Shown: piece by piece, positions 30,000 to 37,955 of the stretch
How positions within the stretch are numbered: the first letter of the stretch is position 1
Layout of the letters: each line of letters begins with the position of its first letter
NCBI RefSeq assembly: GCF_001306175.1
Contig: NZ_LGKN01000009.1
Coordinates: 310,001 to 374,000 of the forward strand
Direction: 5' to 3'
Length of the DNA stretch: 64,000 nucleotides
Source of the DNA: Ardenticatena maritima
Lineage (GTDB): Bacteria; Chloroflexota; Anaerolineae; Ardenticatenales; Ardenticatenaceae
Program-made: the position numbers and the translations under genes
Notes under the pieces: model-generated
The model's database searches: none
Seen by the model: the letters and a program-made list of their open reading frames with translations, nothing else
Told to the model about the DNA's origin: nothing

Positions 30000-30054
30000 G
30001 CCCGAGGCGGCAAATTGCAGAATAGCCCACCAGCGCCCACCGGCAATGGTTTTC

Positions 30055-30083
30055 TTCACGCAATACAACCGTTTTGTTATACT
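30055..30083 (+). promoter_or_regulatory. Promoter of the STAND/WD40 gene
   Basis: TTCACG (30055-30060), 17-bp spacer, TATACT (30078-30083), 37 bp upstream of the ATG at 30121. Confidence 0.55.
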
Positions 30084-30120
30084 TGTGAGGGAGTCAGTGA
30101 AGAAAAAGGAGTACTTGGTG

Positions 30121-33100
30121 ATGAACGACGCACGCCTGCGCCAGGTCTTGGAGCGTTTGCAAAGCGGAACCCTCTCACCGGACGACCTCAATGTCCTGCG
30201 CGAGGCACTCCGCACCGGCCATCTGCGTATCGCCACTGGTGAGCGCGCTGTGGACATCGGCGGCAGCGCGGACGGCGCGGTCATCGTGACCGGCGACAAC
30301 AACATCGTGCGGCTGGACGCCCACCGCCGCGCGCACCTGGAGCGCCTGCTGGCCGCGCCCATCCACAACGTGCCGTCCCTGCCCGACCACTACATCCCGC
30401 GTGAGGAATTTCTGCCCCCCCTGCGGGAAGCCCTGCTGCGCAGCGACGCCACCCCTCTGGGCATCATCGGCGTGCAGGGCATGGGCGGCATCGGCAAGAG
30501 CGTGCTGGCCGCCGCCCTGGCGCGCGACCTGCAGGTGCAGGCCGCCTTCCCCGACGGCGTCATCTGGCTGGAGATGGGGCGCGAGCCGGAACTCACCGCC
30601 CGCCAGGAGGACCTTTACCTGATCCTGACAGGCGAACGCGAAAACTTCAAAGACCCCGCCCAGGGGCGTCTCTTCCTGGCCCCCGCCTTGCAGGAGAAGG
30701 CCTGCCTGGTCATCCTGGACGATGTTTGGGAACTGCCCCACGCGGAAGCCTTCCCTCTGGACCTGGAAGGGATGCGAGCGCGTTTCCTGCTCACCACCCG
30801 CAACGCGGAGATCTTGCAGGCCCTGCAGGCGCAGCCCTTCACCCTGGACGTGCTGACCGAAGAACAGGCCCTGGCCCTGTTGGCCGCCTGGGCCGGGCAG
30901 CAGGTGGAAGACCTGCCCCCCGCCGCCCGCGAAGTGGCCACGGAATGCGGCTACCTGCCTCTGGCCATGGCCATGGTGGGCGCCTTCGTGCGCCAAAATC
31001 CCGAAAGTTGGGAACGCGCCCTGCGCCGCCTGCGCAAGGCTGACCTGGAGAAACTCCGCCGCCTTTTCCCCGGCTACGAACACCCCACCCTGCTGGCGGC
31101 CCTGGAAGTGAGCGTGGCGGCGCTGCCAAAATGGGCGCACGACCGCTACCTGGACCTGGCCGTCTTCCCCGAGGATGAGGCCATCCCCCTGGACGTGCTG
31201 GCCGCCTTCTGGGAACCCCGCGACCTGGATGAAGACGATGTGCTCGACCTGGCCGAGACCTTTGTGAACCGCTCCCTGGCCCGCTGGGAAGAACAAGGCC
31301 GCGCCCTGCGCCTGCACGACCTGCAGCACGACTACCTGCGCGCCGTGCAGAAAGAGCACCTGCCAGACCTGCACCGCCGCTTCCTGCTGGCCTGCGCCCA
31401 AAGTTTGCTGGGCGTTCAGGCCGAGGCATTGGCGGGCCTGCCCTGGCACCGGCTGCCCAACGAGCCCCGCTACCTCTGGCGGCGATTAGTGTACCACCTG
31501 CTGGAAATTCCGGACTGGGACGCGCTCTACCGCCTGCTGACCGACTTTGACTATCTGGAAGCCCGCTGCCGAGCCGACTCGGTCTTCGACCTGGAAGCCG
31601 ATTACCGCCTGGCCCTGGCCCGCTGGCCCCAGGCGGAGGCCAAACGCCGCGAGGTGCTGGCCACCTTTGAAGAGCGCCTGCGCCTGGAAGACCACCGCAT
31701 CGCCATGGCCCCCGAATGGCTCTTCCCGGCCTTTTACAACCACCTCACTTGGTTGGACGCGCCCGACGGCCCCCTGCACGCCCTGTGCGAGGCCGCGGCC
31801 GGAAAGCGCCGGAACTGGCTGCGCTCGGTGCAGGACCCGCGGCCCCAGCCCCCGCCCTGGCTCCGCTCCCTCGAAGGCCACACCAGACCTGTGCGGGCCG
31901 TGGCGGTCAGCCCCGACGGCCGCACCATCGTCAGCGGCTCCTCCGACCACACCGTCAAGGTCTGGGACGCCCACTCCGGCCAACTCATCCGCTCCCTCGA
32001 AGGCCACACCAGACCTGTGCGGGCCGTGGCGGTCAGCCCCGACGGCCGCACCATCGTCAGCGGCTCCTCCGACCACACCGTCAAGGTCTGGGACGCCCAC
32101 TCCGGCCAACTCATCCGCTCCCTCGAAGGCCACACCTGGTCAGTGAACGCCGTGGCGGTCAGCCCCGACGGCCGCACCATCGTCAGCGGCTCCTGGGATC
32201 ACACGGTGAAGGTCTGGGACGCCCACTCCGGCCAACTCATCCGCTCCCTCGAAGGCCACACCGATGCCGTGCAGGCCGTGGCGGTCAGCCCCGACGGCCG
32301 CACCATCGTCAGCGGCTCCTGGGATCACACGGTCAAGGTCTGGGACGCCCACTCCGGCCAACTCATCCGCTCCCTCGAAGGCCACACCAGACCTGTGCGG
32401 GCCGTGGCGGTCAGCCCCGACGGCCGCACCATCGTCAGCGGCTCCTGGGATCACACGGTGAAGGTCTGGGACGCCCAATCCGGCCAACTCATCCGCTCCC
32501 TCGAAGGCCACACCGATGCCGTGCAGGCCGTGGCCGTCAGCCCCGACGGCCGCACCATCGTCAGCGGCTCCGATGACCGCACCGTCAAGGTCTGGGACGC
32601 CCAATCCGGCCAACTGCTGCGCTCCCTGGAAGGCCACACCAATTGGGTGCTGGCCGTGGCGGTCAGCCCCGACGGCCGCACGGTCGTCAGCGGCTCCGAC
32701 GACTGCACCGTCAAGGTCTGGGACGCCCACTCCGGCCAACTCCTCCGCTCCCTGGAAGGCCACACGGATGAGGTGAACGCCGTGGCGGTCAGCCCCGACG
32801 GCCGCACCATCGTCAGCGGCTCCTGGGATCACACGGTCAAGGTCTGGGACGCCCACTCCGGCCAACTCATCCGCTCCCTCGAAGGCCACACCAGACCTGT
32901 GCGGGCCGTGGCGGTCAGCCCCGACGGCCGCACCATCGTCAGCGGCTCCTGGGATCACACGGTGAAGGTCTGGGACGCCCAATCCGGCCAACTCATCCGC
33001 TCCCTCGAAGGCCACACCGATGCCGTGCAGGCCGTGGCCGTCAGCCCCGACGGCCGCACCATCGTCAGCGGCTCCGATGACCGCACCGTCAAGGTCTGGG

Positions 33101-33489
33101 ACGCCCAATCCGGCCAACTGCTGCGCTCCCTGGAAGGCCACACCAATTGGGTGCTGGCCGTGGCGGTCAGCCCCGACGGCCGCACGGTCGTCAGCGGCTC
33201 CGACGACTGCACCGTCAAGGTCTGGGACGCCCACTCCGGCCAACTCCTCCGCTCCCTGGAAGGCCACACGGATGAGGTGAACGCCGTGGCGGTCAGCCCC
33301 GACGGCCGCACCATCGTCAGCGGCTCATCCGACCGCACGCTGCGCGCCTGGGACCTGGAACGCGGCGAATCCCGCGTGCTCTTCTGGAACGACGCGTCGA
33401 TCCCCTCCCTCGCCATCTCGCCCGACGGCCGCACCCTGGCCTGCGGGGACGGTCAAGGGCGGGTGTGGATTTTCGAATGGGTGCGCTAA
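30121..33489 (+). CDS. NB-ARC STAND ATPase with N-terminal adaptor-like region and WD40 propeller
   Basis: A 1122-residue signal-transduction ATPase. Start ATG 30121 has AAGGAG at 30106-30111. Layout: a short helical N-terminus with an RAVDIGGSADGAVIVTGDNN beta segment (1-80), resembling adaptor segments of conflict-type STAND proteins; NB-ARC with Walker A GVQGMGGIGKS (117-127), Walker B LVILDDVW (196-203) and GYLPLA (277-282); a helical arm; then twelve 42-residue WD repeats from residue 583 and a degenerate thirteenth. Repeats are near-identical in DNA, so recently amplified. Such proteins act as ligand-sensing switches, often in defence or cell death. No effector domain is visible in cis and no obvious partner is adjacent, so the role is inferred. 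Confidence 0.92.
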   Translation: MNDARLRQVLERLQSGTLSPDDLNVLREALRTGHLRIATGERAVDIGGSADGAVIVTGDNNIVRLDAHRRAHLERLLAAPIHNVPSLPDHYIPREEFLPPLREALLRSDATPLGIIGVQGMGGIGKSVLAAALARDLQVQAAFPDGVIWLEMGREPELTARQEDLYLILTGERENFKDPAQGRLFLAPALQEKACLVILDDVWELPHAEAFPLDLEGMRARFLLTTRNAEILQALQAQPFTLDVLTEEQALALLAAWAGQQVEDLPPAAREVATECGYLPLAMAMVGAFVRQNPESWERALRRLRKADLEKLRRLFPGYEHPTLLAALEVSVAALPKWAHDRYLDLAVFPEDEAIPLDVLAAFWEPRDLDEDDVLDLAETFVNRSLARWEEQGRALRLHDLQHDYLRAVQKEHLPDLHRRFLLACAQSLLGVQAEALAGLPWHRLPNEPRYLWRRLVYHLLEIPDWDALYRLLTDFDYLEARCRADSVFDLEADYRLALARWPQAEAKRREVLATFEERLRLEDHRIAMAPEWLFPAFYNHLTWLDAPDGPLHALCEAAAGKRRNWLRSVQDPRPQPPPWLRSLEGHTRPVRAVAVSPDGRTIVSGSSDHTVKVWDAHSGQLIRSLEGHTRPVRAVAVSPDGRTIVSGSSDHTVKVWDAHSGQLIRSLEGHTWSVNAVAVSPDGRTIVSGSWDHTVKVWDAHSGQLIRSLEGHTDAVQAVAVSPDGRTIVSGSWDHTVKVWDAHSGQLIRSLEGHTRPVRAVAVSPDGRTIVSGSWDHTVKVWDAQSGQLIRSLEGHTDAVQAVAVSPDGRTIVSGSDDRTVKVWDAQSGQLLRSLEGHTNWVLAVAVSPDGRTVVSGSDDCTVKVWDAHSGQLLRSLEGHTDEVNAVAVSPDGRTIVSGSWDHTVKVWDAHSGQLIRSLEGHTRPVRAVAVSPDGRTIVSGSWDHTVKVWDAQSGQLIRSLEGHTDAVQAVAVSPDGRTIVSGSDDRTVKVWDAQSGQLLRSLEGHTNWVLAVAVSPDGRTVVSGSDDCTVKVWDAHSGQLLRSLEGHTDEVNAVAVSPDGRTIVSGSSDRTLRAWDLERGESRVLFWNDASIPSLAISPDGRTLACGDGQGRVWIFEWVR
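31867..33378 (+). repeat. Twelve tandem 126-bp WD40-coding repeats
   Basis: Units start every 126 bp from 31867. Each encodes SLEGHT-xxVx-AVAVSPDG-RT.VSGS-xDxTVKVWDA-xSGQL.R. Differences concentrate at a few codons (RP/WS/DA/NW/DE after GHT; S/W/D and H/R/C before TVKVWD). Units 5-8 (32371-32874) and 9-12 (32875-33378) form a higher-order 504-bp duplication. Confidence 0.95.
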
Positions 33490-33497
33490 CGCCGGCG

Positions 33498-34601
33498 CTA
33501 CCTCGCCTGCACACGGCGCGCCCGCTCGCGCCCTTGCGCCGTCAGCGCCAAATGCCCGTTTTGGCGCACCACCAGCCCATCACGCAACGCCGCCTGGACA
33601 GACCGCTCCGCAAACGCCGGTGACCAGCCCAGTTCGCTCACCAGGTGCGCCAGCGTGTTTTCGGTGGCTTCGTCGGGGGTGCCCTCGTGGCGGCTCAGGT
33701 GTACCAGCAGCATATCCACGGCAAACCGCGCTCGGCGGCGGCGGCGCTGGAGCCAGCGCGCCACCACGCCCCGCTGCGGCGCCCCCACCAGCGCCAGCAG
33801 GAAACAGAACCCCGCCATCGCCGCCATCGAGCCGGCGATACTGCTGTCGAGCCAGCGCGCCAGCCAGTAGCCCCCCACCGCCGAAAGCGCACCAATGCCC
33901 GCCGCCAACCCCAGCATGACCGAGAGCCGGTCGGTGAGCAGGTACGCCGCCGCCGGCGGTGCAATCATCAACGCCACCACCAGCACCGAGCCGACATGGT
34001 CAAACGCGCCCACCGCCGTCACCGAGACGACGCTCATCAAGCCGTAGTGGATGAGGGTGGGCGAAAACCCCAGCGCCGCCGCCAGGCCGGGGTCGAAGGT
34101 GGCGAGTTTGAGTTCCTTGTAGAAAAGCAGCAGCAACAGAACGTTGAGCACCAAAATAGCCCCCATCGCCACCAATCCTCGCGGCAGGTCGAATCCGAAG
34201 AGTTCCATGCGGTTGAAAGGCGCAAACGCCAGTTCCCCCAACAAGACCGCGTCGGTATCCAGGTGGACGTTGTTGGCGTAGCGGTTGATGAGAATCACCC
34301 CCACACTGAACAGCGCCGGAAAAACCAGCCCGATGGCGGCGTCCGCCTTCACCAGGCGCGTGTTCAGCAAAGTTTCCACCAACCAGACGGTGAACAGACC
34401 GCTCAGCGCCGCCATCCCAATCACCACGGGGTGCGTGGTTTGCTCAACGAGGAAGAACCCCAGCACAATGCCCAGCAAAATGCTGTGGCTAATGGCGTCG
34501 CTCATCATTGCCATGCGGCGCAAGACCAGAAACGTCCCCGGAAGAGCGCAGGCCACCGCTACAATCACCGCCACAAGTTGAATTTCCAGTACCGGGTTCA
34601 T
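33498..34601 (-). CDS. Metal (Mn/Zn/Fe) ABC transporter permease with winged-helix tail
   Basis: A 367-residue ABC-3 family permease with about eight membrane helices (RRMAMMSDAISHSILLGIVLG and VGAFDHVGSVLVVALMIAPPAAAY are family landmarks). After residue about 280 a basic linker (RWLQRRRRRARFAV) leads to a soluble winged-helix-like domain (ENTLAHLVSELGWSPAFAER, then ALRDGLVVRQNGHLALTAQG) similar to DtxR/MntR-type DNA-binding folds. Overlaps the upstream permease by 4 bp (ATGA), showing translational coupling. It is the last gene of the importer operon. Confidence 0.92.
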   Translation of the reverse strand: MNPVLEIQLVAVIVAVACALPGTFLVLRRMAMMSDAISHSILLGIVLGFFLVEQTTHPVVIGMAALSGLFTVWLVETLLNTRLVKADAAIGLVFPALFSVGVILINRYANNVHLDTDAVLLGELAFAPFNRMELFGFDLPRGLVAMGAILVLNVLLLLLFYKELKLATFDPGLAAALGFSPTLIHYGLMSVVSVTAVGAFDHVGSVLVVALMIAPPAAAYLLTDRLSVMLGLAAGIGALSAVGGYWLARWLDSSIAGSMAAMAGFCFLLALVGAPQRGVVARWLQRRRRRARFAVDMLLVHLSRHEGTPDEATENTLAHLVSELGWSPAFAERSVQAALRDGLVVRQNGHLALTAQGRERARRVQAR

Positions 34602-35728
34602 GCTTCCCGCTCCTCTTGCCCTCGTTGTTGCACCACATCGCGCCCGCGCGCCGTCAACGCCCAGCGTTGCCCATTCGCCCGTTGCACCAAGCCTTCCTGT
34701 TCCAGCACATCCAGCGTGGGGCGCACATCACGCCCGCCCAGCGCCGCCCGGATAGCCGCTTCCTCGTGTGGGTGGTCAAACGTGGGGTGATGCGCCGCCA
34801 TGCTCGCCATCGCCGCCAGCACCGCCCGGCGGTGCACCTGCCGCCGCTGTTGCCGCCGCCGCCACCACTGCGCCACCATCCCCCGATGCGGGGCAAATGT
34901 GAGCGAAACCAGCACCAACACCGTCGCCACCACCACAATGGTGGGCCCTGTTGGCAAATTGGGCACGAAACTGCTGACCAGCGCCCCCACAACGCCGATG
35001 AACGCGCCAAACAGGCCGCCGAGCGTCACCATCAGCCCCAGTTTGTCGGTCCATTGGCGGGCCGCCGCTCCGGGCGCAACCAGCATGGCGCTCATCAGCA
35101 CCACACCCACCATCTGCAACCCCACCACCACCGCCAGCACAATGAGCGTGGTCAACAGCACATCCAGGCGGCGCGTGGGAAACCCCAGCGTCGCGGCATA
35201 GGCGGGGTCGAAACTGAGGAGTTTGAACTCCTTCCAGAAAAGCGCCACACACAACAGCCCCAGCATGCCCACCAGCGCCATCGTCGCCACATCTTCCATC
35301 ACCAGCGCCGCCGCCCGCCCGAAGAGGAACTTGTCCAGCCCGCTCTGGCTGGCGGGTCCCGTGCGCTGAACCCAGGTGAGCAACATCAACCCCACACCGA
35401 AAAAGACGGCCAGCACAATCCCCAGCGCGCTGTCTTCCTTGATGCGCGTTTCATGCGTGACGAACAGCACAAAGAGCACCCCCACCCAGCCGGCAATCAG
35501 CGCCCCCAGCATGAGCACGGGCATGGCTTTACTGCCGGTGAGGATGAACACCAGCACCACGCCGGGCAACGCCGCGTGGCTCATGGCGTCCCCCAACAGG
35601 GCTTGCCGCCGCAAAACGGCAAAGCAACTCAGCACACCGCTCACGACGCCGAACACCGCCGCCCCCAGCAAGACGGTGCGAATGGTGTAATCGCCCACGA
35701 CCAGCGCCAAAACATCCCCCCAATTCAT
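34598..35728 (-). CDS. Second metal ABC transporter permease with winged-helix tail
   Basis: A 376-residue ABC-3 family permease. The start at 35728 is chosen for the ATGA overlap with the ATPase stop. Family landmarks include [21 protein letters not shown] and [20 protein letters not shown]. The C-terminus again carries a basic linker ([20 protein letters not shown]) and a winged-helix-like domain ([27 protein letters not shown]). The two permeases probably form a heterodimer. Two tailed permeases in one importer suggest a conserved cytoplasmic sensor or regulatory module. Confidence 0.92.
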
Positions 35729-36513
35729 GTGCCCGCTCCTTCGTGCGTGTTTTCTTCTTCCAGCGCGAAGGAAAGCCACTCCATGCGCCCGCCATACGTG
35801 CGGCGCAGATTTTCGGGCGTAAAGACCTCATCCACTGGCCCCGAAGCAATGGCGCGCACATTCAGCAGCAAAGCCCAGTCAAAATACTCGCGCACGGTTT
35901 CAAGGTCGTGATGGACCACCACAACCGTGCGCCCGGCGGCGCGCAGTTCGCGCAGAACATTGACGATGGCTTTTTCCGTCGTGGCGTCCACGCCCTGAAA
36001 CGGCTCATCCATGAGGTAGATTCGCGCATCCTGCACCAGGGCGCGCGCCAGAAAAACGCGCTGTTGTTGCCCCCCCGACAACTGGCTGATTTGCCGCCCG
36101 GCAAACGCTTCCATGCCCACTTTGCGCAAGGCGTCCATCGCCAACTCGCGGTCGCGCCGTCCGGGCCGCCGAATCCAGCCCAAATGTCCGTAGCGCCCCA
36201 TCATCACCACATCGAGCACGTTGGTGGGGAAATCCCAATCCACGCTCCCCCGTTGCGGCACATACGCCACCAGGCGGCGCTGTTCGCGGTAGGGTTTGCC
36301 GTAAATCAGCACGCGCCCGGCGGCGGGCTCAACCAGCCCCAAAATTGTTTTGATGAGCGTGCTCTTGCCCGCGCCGTTGGGGCCCACAATCGCCATCAGC
36401 ACGCCTTCGGGCACGGCGAGGTCAACATCCCAGAGCACAGGCTCTTCGGCATACGCCACGGTCAAGTCTTCAACAAGAATCGGACACGTTTCAGGGTGTT
36501 GAATGTTCAACAT
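35725..36513 (-). CDS. Metal ABC transporter ATP-binding protein
   Basis: A 262-residue ATPase subunit of the importer. The start at 36513 has AGGAGC upstream. Walker A is [15 protein letters not shown], the signature motif is [18 protein letters not shown], Walker B is [12 protein letters not shown], and the H-loop follows in [14 protein letters not shown]. It couples ATP hydrolysis to cation uptake by the two permeases. Its 5' end overlaps the binding-protein gene by 23 bp and its 3' end overlaps the next permease by 4 bp. Confidence 0.95.
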
Positions 36514-37474
36514 AGGGTGCTCCTGTGGTTCTGTTGCCAAGTAAACCGTCCACAATCGTGTCAATGTTATGCTTCATCATGCCTTCATACGTTCCCGCAG
36601 GCGTATCGGGGTCGCCCAGAGAATCCGAAAAGAGTTCGCCGCCGATAACGACGGTATGCCCACGCGCCTGCGCCCCCGACACAATCGCCTCGATGACATC
36701 GGGCGGCACACTGCTTTCCACGAAGATGGCGCGGATACGGCGCGACACCACCAGGTCAATCGTGCGGCGAATGTCGGCAATCCCCGCCTCGGAGGTGGTG
36801 CTAATCCCCTGCGGCGCAAACACCTCAAAGCCATAGGCGCGCCCGAAGTACTGAAACGCATCATGCGCCGTCACCAGAACGCGCTGCTCAGGCGGCACCT
36901 CTTCGGCACGCGCCCGAATGTAGGCATCCAGCGCATCCAGCCGCTGCAAATAGGCGTCCGCCCGCGTGCGGTAGGTCTCGGCCTGCGCGGGGTCAACGTC
37001 AACAAGCGTATCCCGAATACGCTCGACGACGTAGCGCCACAACTGCACATCCATCCAGATATGCGGGTCGGGTTGATCGGGGTACTGCGGCGACGCCAAC
37101 AGCAACTCACGCGGGACGGCTTCGCCAACCGCCACGGTGGGGGTGTATTTGTTCATCTGCTCGAAAATGTCCACCATACGCGCTTCCAGGTGCAAACCGT
37201 TGTAGAAAATCACATCCGCGCTCAAAATGCGATGGACATCCCCCTCACTGGCTTTGTAGAGGTGGGGGTCAACGCCCGGCCCCATCAGCGCCACAACCTG
37301 CACGGCGTCCCCCCCAACCTGGCGCACCGCGTCGGCAATCATGCCGGTTGTCGCCACCACACGCAGCCGCCCATCATCCACAAACACAGCAGCGCGCGAC
37401 GGCGTGCACGCCCCCAGGAAGACCAGCACCACAAGCACCAGACTGAACATGACCCATCGTTGCCGCCGAGGCAT
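36491..37474 (-). CDS. TroA/ZnuA-family metal-binding lipoprotein of the ABC importer
   Basis: A 327-residue solute-binding lipoprotein. The signal peptide ends in a lipobox (LVFLGAC, Cys near residue 22). Cluster A-I landmarks: [31 protein letters not shown] with a His ligand, [13 protein letters not shown] with a second His, [19 protein letters not shown] with another His, and a final acidic ligand region. The His-rich loop of ZnuA is absent, which favours Mn or Fe over Zn as substrate; this is inference. First gene of the operon, with a palindromic operator upstream. Confidence 0.93.
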
Positions 37475-37495
37475 AGATGACGCTCCCTTTCAAGA

Positions 37496-37550
37496 ATTTT
37501 TAGCCTTGGCTAAAAATGTATCAGGGGCGGAAAATTTAGTCAAATCTAAA
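37496..37550 (-). promoter_or_regulatory. Promoter and two palindromic operators of the metal-importer operon
   Basis: On the minus strand: -35 TTGACT (37543-37538), 17-bp spacer, -10 TACATT (37520-37515). A perfect 22-bp palindrome, ATTTTTAGCC-TT-GGCTAAAAAT (37496-37517), overlaps the -10. A second inverted repeat TTTAG-N6-CTAAA (37535-37550) covers the -35. This looks like metal-dependent repression by a DtxR/MntR-family protein. The promoter calls are moderate; the palindromes are directly seen. Confidence 0.7.
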
Positions 37551-37697: not shown

Positions 37698-37955
37698 ATG
37701 CCGCGACTACTGGAAGTAAAGCCTTTGAAAGGCTATCGGTTATGGCTGAAGTATGAGGATGGGATAGAAGGCGTTGTAGACCTTTCCGACCTGGTAGGAA
37801 AGGGTGTGTTTGCGTTGTGGGAAGATGAGGAACGTTTTCAGCAAGTGCAGATAGGAGACGGGGGAGAGTTGGTATGGAGTGACGAGGTAGACGTATGCCC
37901 CGACGCGCTCTATCTTCAGATAACCGGAAAACAGCCTGAAATTGCCCCCTCTTGA
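37698..37955 (+). CDS. DUF2442 protein
   Basis: An 85-residue protein matching the DUF2442 family: MPRLLEVKPLKGYRLWLKYE, a DGIEGVVDLSDLVGKGVF core and the SDEVDVCPDALYLQ ending. Relatives are often encoded beside DUF4160 partners in toxin-antitoxin-like pairs, but no DUF4160 gene is seen here. AGGAGAAAGG precedes the ATG. A TATAAT at 37632-37637 is a likely -10. Function unknown. Confidence 0.8.
   Translation: MPRLLEVKPLKGYRLWLKYEDGIEGVVDLSDLVGKGVFALWEDEERFQQVQIGDGGELVWSDEVDVCPDALYLQITGKQPEIAPS

Follow-up and report, generated by a model that had tools for sequence, protein, structure and literature searches.

The importer operon analysed here, which is troABCD-like, was preceded by two copies of the inverted repeat TTTAG-N6-CTAAA, and the same motif was found at orthologous operons of related genomes and upstream of genes for DtxR-family proteins. 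The two repeats are probably tandem operators of a DtxR-family metalloregulator, most likely a protein designated DtxR1, that would repress the importer when metal is plentiful. Judged from the sequence, DtxR/MntR-type control of this promoter is strongly supported. The original prediction had likewise favored operators of the DtxR/MntR type over Fur or Zur boxes, and the motif itself, phylogenetic footprinting and the association with DtxR-family genes all supported that assignment. The features concerned are given below, numbered from the first nucleotide of the 64,000-nucleotide stretch of Ardenticatena maritima DNA that was analysed (the window).

33498..34601, minus strand: ABC-3 permease 2 (PF00950)
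33501..33776, minus strand: last 92 residues of permease 2 with the C-terminal tail, a predicted DtxR-like winged helix
34598..35779, minus strand: ABC-3 permease 1 (PF00950), with a C-terminal tail at about 34601-34861
35725..36564, minus strand: ABC transporter ATPase (PF00005); the true start is probably within the ORF
36491..37474, minus strand: TroA-like metal-binding protein (PF01297, 280.5 bits) with ligands H71, H138, H204 and D284
37483..37487, minus strand: GGGAG, a likely ribosome-binding site read from the sequence
37496..37517, no strand assigned: operator 1 (predicted), an inverted repeat with the core TTTAG-N6-CTAAA at 37499-37514
37515..37543, minus strand: sigma-70-like promoter TTGACT-17-TACATT, 9 of 12 consensus positions, TG before the -10 (consensus match only)
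37535..37550, no strand assigned: operator 2 (predicted), TTTAG-N6-CTAAA over the -35

The operon is a run of four minus-strand genes beginning at 37474 that encode the TroA-like binding protein, the ATPase and the two ABC-3 permeases. TTGACT-17-TACATT was the one promoter-like match between 37300 and 37800, with its -35 at 37543-37538 and its -10 at 37520-37515 on the minus strand. Operator 1 was ATTTTTAGCC-TT-GGCTAAAAAT (37496-37517). It had been described as a perfect 22-bp palindrome overlapping the -10; the arms were indeed complementary at 10 of 10 positions and the repeat shared the last three bases of the -10, but the central TT was unpaired, leaving 20 of the 22 bases paired. The center of operator 1 approximately coincided with the expected transcription start, predicted near 37508. 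The second repeat was present on the -35 as originally claimed. Operator 2 (37535-37550), TTTAGTCAAATCTAAA, read as TTTAG-TCAAAT-CTAAA, enclosed the entire -35, and its center was 36 bp from that of operator 1. Thus, both inverted repeats contained the TTAG and CTAA half-sites with the 6-bp spacing of a DtxR/MntR-type operator and both overlapped the core promoter, as defined by the consensus match, of a metal-uptake operon. A small divergent gene at 37698-37955 encodes a DUF2442 protein that weakly resembles the antitoxin DhiA, below the threshold; there was no sign that the operators serve this gene.

Orthologs of the binding protein (more than 290 bits) were found in 11 other genomes among the 80 searched, a set that included the A. 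maritima genome. Ten of these 12 genomes, A. maritima counted, had the exact TTTAG-N6-CTAAA motif at their copy of the operon, while each of 19 permuted half-sites used as controls was found in 0 of 12. One of the two misses, G071, had two one-mismatch sites and was scored as a miss in the exact count because the start of its regulator ORF was set too far upstream; the other, G042, had no site. In five relatives (G003, G051, G016, G046 and G060), the site was directly before the binding-protein gene, and in five others (G033, G066, G027, G040 and G071), it preceded a DtxR-family gene heading the operon, with two further ORFs between this gene and the binding protein in G033. The motif was therefore kept across the orthologous operons and linked to genes of the DtxR family, as is expected of a DtxR/MntR-type operator. 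Neither exact nor one-mismatch sites were found at 18 less related binding-protein loci (L019-L036), and the other two importers of the A. maritima genome (L050 and L051) also had no site. In a genome of the same genus (G001, L049:7827-8665), the importer operon was a remnant, unless mis-assembled, that consisted of residues 1-69 of the binding protein and a piece of permease 2. Operator 2 was intact and the -10 was kept, while one half of operator 1 had decayed.

The survey was extended to the best 80, all named, of at least 592 confirmed loci, which were divided into 47 non-Firmicutes and 33 Firmicutes by our own labels. Among the non-Firmicutes, an exact site preceded either the importer or a DtxR gene linked to it in 21 of 47 loci, and a site with one mismatch did so in 28 of 47, compared with at most 1 exact and 4 one-mismatch sites for the permuted half-sites at the same 47 loci. 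The Firmicutes had exact sites at 0 of 33 loci and one-mismatch sites at 6 of 33 against up to 4 for the permutations, so that the motif was not clearly present in this group. Several further phyla also had the motif at their importer and DtxR genes. When the 80 genomes were searched for exact sites, 33 of the 75 sites listed (of 76) stood in front of an importer or DtxR-family gene, at a distance of no more than 300 bp; counted by gene over the same listed sites, such a site preceded 7 of 13 genes for importers and 20 of 129 of the DtxR family. Alignment of 45 distinct exact sites, the core of which is fixed by selection of the sites, showed A/T-rich flanks and a pyrimidine at spacer position 2 in 90% of the half-sites, which is compatible with the DtxR spacer GTTAGC. 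In two relatives, the exact motif occurred about 360 bp upstream of an ORF that we read as FeoB-like (L198, position 1501) and 87 bp upstream of an ORF that we read as a ZIP-like transporter (L195, position 1501); these genes are possible further targets.

A search of the A. maritima genome (3.56 Mb, 98.58% complete) located the exact motif at two places, both in this promoter, compared with 13 for the reversed pattern. With up to one mismatch, there were 13 places for the motif and 154 for the reversed control. The low counts were not accepted as evidence of selection because something else may make TAG and CTA words rare. The 20-bp form, with three mismatches allowed at most, was found only here, a count that says little by itself since the reversed control also gave one. 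The 13 places comprised the two operators, one site before the DtxR1 gene, seven sites within ORFs, two (L056 and L058) that overlapped the 3' ends of ORFs, and one intergenic site (L062) approximately 145 bp upstream of a pilin-like gene with no metal link. The genome-wide search, which had been suggested as a check, with up to one mismatch thus gave convincingly placed sites only at the importer operon and the DtxR1 gene itself, which suggests few targets. The idea that the regulon extends further in this genome was rejected, and the ten remaining one-mismatch sites were treated as chance occurrences, which is not proven.

The genome had three DtxR-family matches, two above the cut-off and the third sub-threshold. 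DtxR1 (228 aa, G000:C3:1086261-1086944) belongs to the family by its Fe_dep_repress (67 bits), Fe_dep_repr_C (105.8 bits) and FeoA (40.5 bits) domains, all over the cut-off, and a one-mismatch site, TTTAGCCTAATCAAAA, was found 37 bp upstream of its gene. The observation that no regulator gene is adjacent to the operon held in this genome, the likely regulator being encoded on another contig (C3). The best solved relative of DtxR1 was 8pvt (150 bits), which we take to be DR2539, and both have the sequence DYLK. By way of DR2539, we read the lysine of DYLK as occupying the position of Glu11 in MntR proteins with the B. subtilis-type binuclear Mn site. DtxR1 has Asp and Glu at what are presumably the positions of Met10 and Cys102 in DtxR.

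Among 30 DtxR1-like loci, including that of A. maritima, 15 had an exact or one-mismatch site in the 200 bp upstream and 15 had none. The three most similar homologues from other genera (G004, G002 and G005; 59-61% identical) had no such site in the loci retrieved, and no importer ortholog was found in these genomes. In a wider set that also included DtxR2, fused permeases and fragments, a site was present in 43 of 75 entries, or 39 of 71 when four long DtxR proteins, which had entered the set because they had the motif, were left out. A tree of 59 of the 75 entries, with the short and long ones omitted, did not show the site-bearing regulators as one clade (101 of 500 shuffled labelings scored as low) and did not group DtxR1 with the operon-linked regulators, so that the motif appears to belong to DtxR1-like proteins broadly. 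In G040 and G071, an unlinked DtxR protein was closer to DtxR1 than the operon-linked one was. The four long proteins (L181, L183, L191 and L194; 335-376 aa) have the same operator upstream and an N-terminal stretch that, in our reading, looks like a membrane anchor.

DtxR1 is not the only candidate. Counting against it are the absence of a site at its nearest homologues in other genera, the mismatch in its own site and the ten further places in the genome with one-mismatch sites. The operators could instead be bound by the other DtxR-family protein (227 aa, G000:C3:465852), the N-terminal domain of which is above the Pfam cut-off, or by both proteins. The separation of the operon-linked regulators from DtxR1 on the tree is in favor of this alternative, as is the presence of the motif at the long DtxR-family genes of relatives, because of which the motif is not tied to one subfamily. 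However, the 13 kb surrounding the gene for the 227-aa protein contained no site with up to one mismatch, and all five operon-linked regulators scored higher to DtxR1 than to this protein, which makes its participation distinctly unlikely. DtxR1 was chosen because of 1) the site at its own gene, 2) its score, and 3) the absence of one near the gene for the 227-aa protein.

It is highly improbable that the regulator is a Fur-family protein, either Fur or Zur, and that the importer transports zinc or iron. The genome has two Fur-family genes, the binding protein has the TroA-type His-His-His-Asp ligands, and its best NCBIfam match was the zinc protein AztC, although below the cut-off. Yet the motif is DtxR-like and located at DtxR-family genes, and one of the two Fur-family genes is directly upstream of a different importer operon (C6:185436-186395) that has no TTTAG-N6-CTAAA motif and could serve zinc.

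The identity of the metal under DtxR/MntR-type control was considered separately. The best solved relative of the binding protein was TroA (1toa, 292 bits), and the His-His-His-Asp ligands were invariant in 11 of 11 aligned binding proteins, as in TroA-type manganese or zinc proteins. This ligand set is also known from zinc-binding relatives, and TroA-type proteins are able to bind zinc. The Mn-specific binding proteins of the PsaA/MntC type have Glu as the third ligand; here, the equivalent residue, His204, was invariant in all 11. No Nramp gene was found when the A. maritima genome was searched for one. Manganese or iron, as originally predicted, is plausible, and manganese, or manganese together with iron, appears likelier than zinc from the sequence because the predicted sensor resembles DR2539, no Nramp gene was found, and a different importer operon lies directly downstream of a Fur-family gene. 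Zinc was kept as a less likely candidate because of the TroA-like ligands of the binding protein.

The local sequence was also compared with dinucleotide shuffles of the surrounding 201 bp. A 10-bp inverted repeat with a loop of up to 6 was obtained in 7 of 4000 shuffles, two copies of TTTAG-N6-CTAAA in 0 of 4000, and at least one copy in 3 of 4000 in a separate set. The whole window had ten 10-bp inverted repeats, some of which overlapped, whereas 20 shuffles gave 0 to 4 each. Operator 1 is consequently not unique as a repeat, and the argument depends on the motif that both operators share, on where it lies and on how it is conserved. That the repeats are RNA hairpins or chance AT-rich symmetry, as the other repeats in the window might suggest, is a negligible prospect, since transcription would start downstream of operator 2, relatives have conserved the motif, and the pair of motifs did not arise by shuffling.

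These features suggest how the operators may function. When cytosolic metal, most likely Mn2+ and possibly also Fe2+, is plentiful, the metal-loaded regulator, most likely the DtxR-FeoA protein DtxR1, would bind as a dimer to both sites. One dimer on the -35 and another at the -10 and start would keep RNA polymerase off the troABCD-like promoter. When metal is short, the regulator would be released and the importer made. DtxR1 probably also represses its own gene through the weaker site upstream of it.

The switch is an ordinary DtxR/MntR-type circuit, of a known kind but in a little-studied lineage, and it was compared with better known systems. The repressors of the family bind when metal-loaded and occlude the polymerase, and the DtxR consensus TTAGGTTAGCCTAACCTAA contains TTAG-N6-CTAA (PMC7762939). 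IdeR recognizes repeats of CCTAA, and a half site can be occupied by just one of its dimers (PMC8464063). The DtxR/IdeR site is a 19-bp sequence that accommodates two dimers, whereas the A. maritima promoter has two separate sites of single-dimer size (PMC7762939, PMC8464063). The troABCD-TroR system of Treponema has in common with the present operon a TroA-class binding protein, ABC-3 permeases, and a sigma-70-like promoter with a dyad-symmetric operator and a DtxR-family repressor, and the TroR of T. denticola answers Mn and Fe (PMC2628430). It differs in having one 18-bp dyad, rather than two operators with the sequence TTTAG-N6-CTAAA and a regulator encoded elsewhere (PMC2628430).

SloR of Streptococcus mutans binds several 6-6-6 palindromes, one of them over the -35, cooperatively and represses Mn importers (PMC12096823). 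The 6-6-6 palindromes, the presence of several per promoter and a DtxR-family protein with a FeoA domain are common to both systems, and by analogy the operator layout fits a SloR-like mode. However, the SloR half-sites are TTTTAA and from another lineage, while those described here are TTTTAG and their cooperativity is only putative (PMC12096823). DR2539 of Deinococcus radiodurans, which is reported to answer Mn and Fe, has in common with DtxR1 an SH3-like domain and, in our reading, a lysine in place of MntR Glu11; 8pvt is the closest solved structure to DtxR1. The reported target of DR2539 is the Nramp gene mntH (PMC3327659), a type of gene that was not found in A. maritima.

The analysis provides a testable operator, TTTAG-N6-CTAAA, for the class Anaerolineae of the Chloroflexota and predicts a small metal circuit that consists of an importer and a regulator that may control itself. 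No manganese regulon for the class was found by title among the papers listed, and a search of mainly open-access literature found nothing on the operator strings or on an MntR regulon of Chloroflexi or Anaerolineae.

The most interesting loose end is the tail of permease 2. Both permeases have a C-terminal extension. The two other importers of the A. maritima genome each yielded one permease, which lacked such an extension. The permease 2 tail was modeled as a winged helix with a mean pLDDT of 89. IdeR and MntR headed the Foldseek list, with a best E value of 0.0018 and none at or below 0.001. The VIA-align comparison gave E. coli MntR (2h09) a Z score of 12.7 and 2.1 Å over 84 residues, followed by MarR-family folds at Z 10-11, values that helical folds are able to reach without kinship. 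Profile comparison of the tail with 12 DtxR1-like proteins gave a probability of 66% (E 5.6e-5), against 0.1% for a binding-protein control, while a Pfam search with three permease tails found nothing above the cut-off.

The conserved positions in permease 2 are H301, H305, E314 and H/E/D323, the last being Glu in A. maritima. In 33 aligned tails, the equivalent residues were H26 (32 of 33), H30 (32 of 33), E39 (33 of 33) and H/E/D48 (33 of 33). These counts, drawn from 34 permease 2 ORFs of 355-405 aa, flatter the case because L164, which has no tail, and L166, a Dadabacteria protein with a tail that lacks the His and Glu residues, were dropped. The pattern H-x3-H-x7/8-E near the end was present in all 11 complete permease 2 proteins of the class orthologs and in none of their permease 1 proteins. 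Among the same 80 named loci as above, it occurred in 35 of 75 permease 2-like ORFs; 30 of the 40 without it were Firmicutes by our labels, most of them tail-less.

The modeled fold raises the possibility, an unlikely one at present, that DtxR-type folds act on the importer at two levels, as the free repressor at the promoter and as the winged helix of permease 2 at the membrane. The tail would sense cytosolic metal by a putative cluster of the conserved His-His-Glu-His/Glu residues and shut transport, although metal sensing by the tail is a guess. Alternatively, it could hold the regulator or operator DNA near the membrane. If the tail functions in one of these ways, metal importers may have a built-in relative of the DNA-binding domain of their repressor as an extra layer of control. 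The literature search, with the same coverage, found nothing on permease-DtxR fusions or a metal-sensing permease tail. In five loci from several other phyla (L116, L146, L149, L154 and L160), permease 1 was fused to a DtxR-like domain recognized by phmmer, which we read as the metal-binding and dimerization part. Elsewhere in the window, an ORF at 30046-33489 encodes a 1147-aa protein that we read as an NTPase-like part followed by a long run of near-identical WD40 repeats; the repeats in the DNA may be prone to recombination or mis-assembly.
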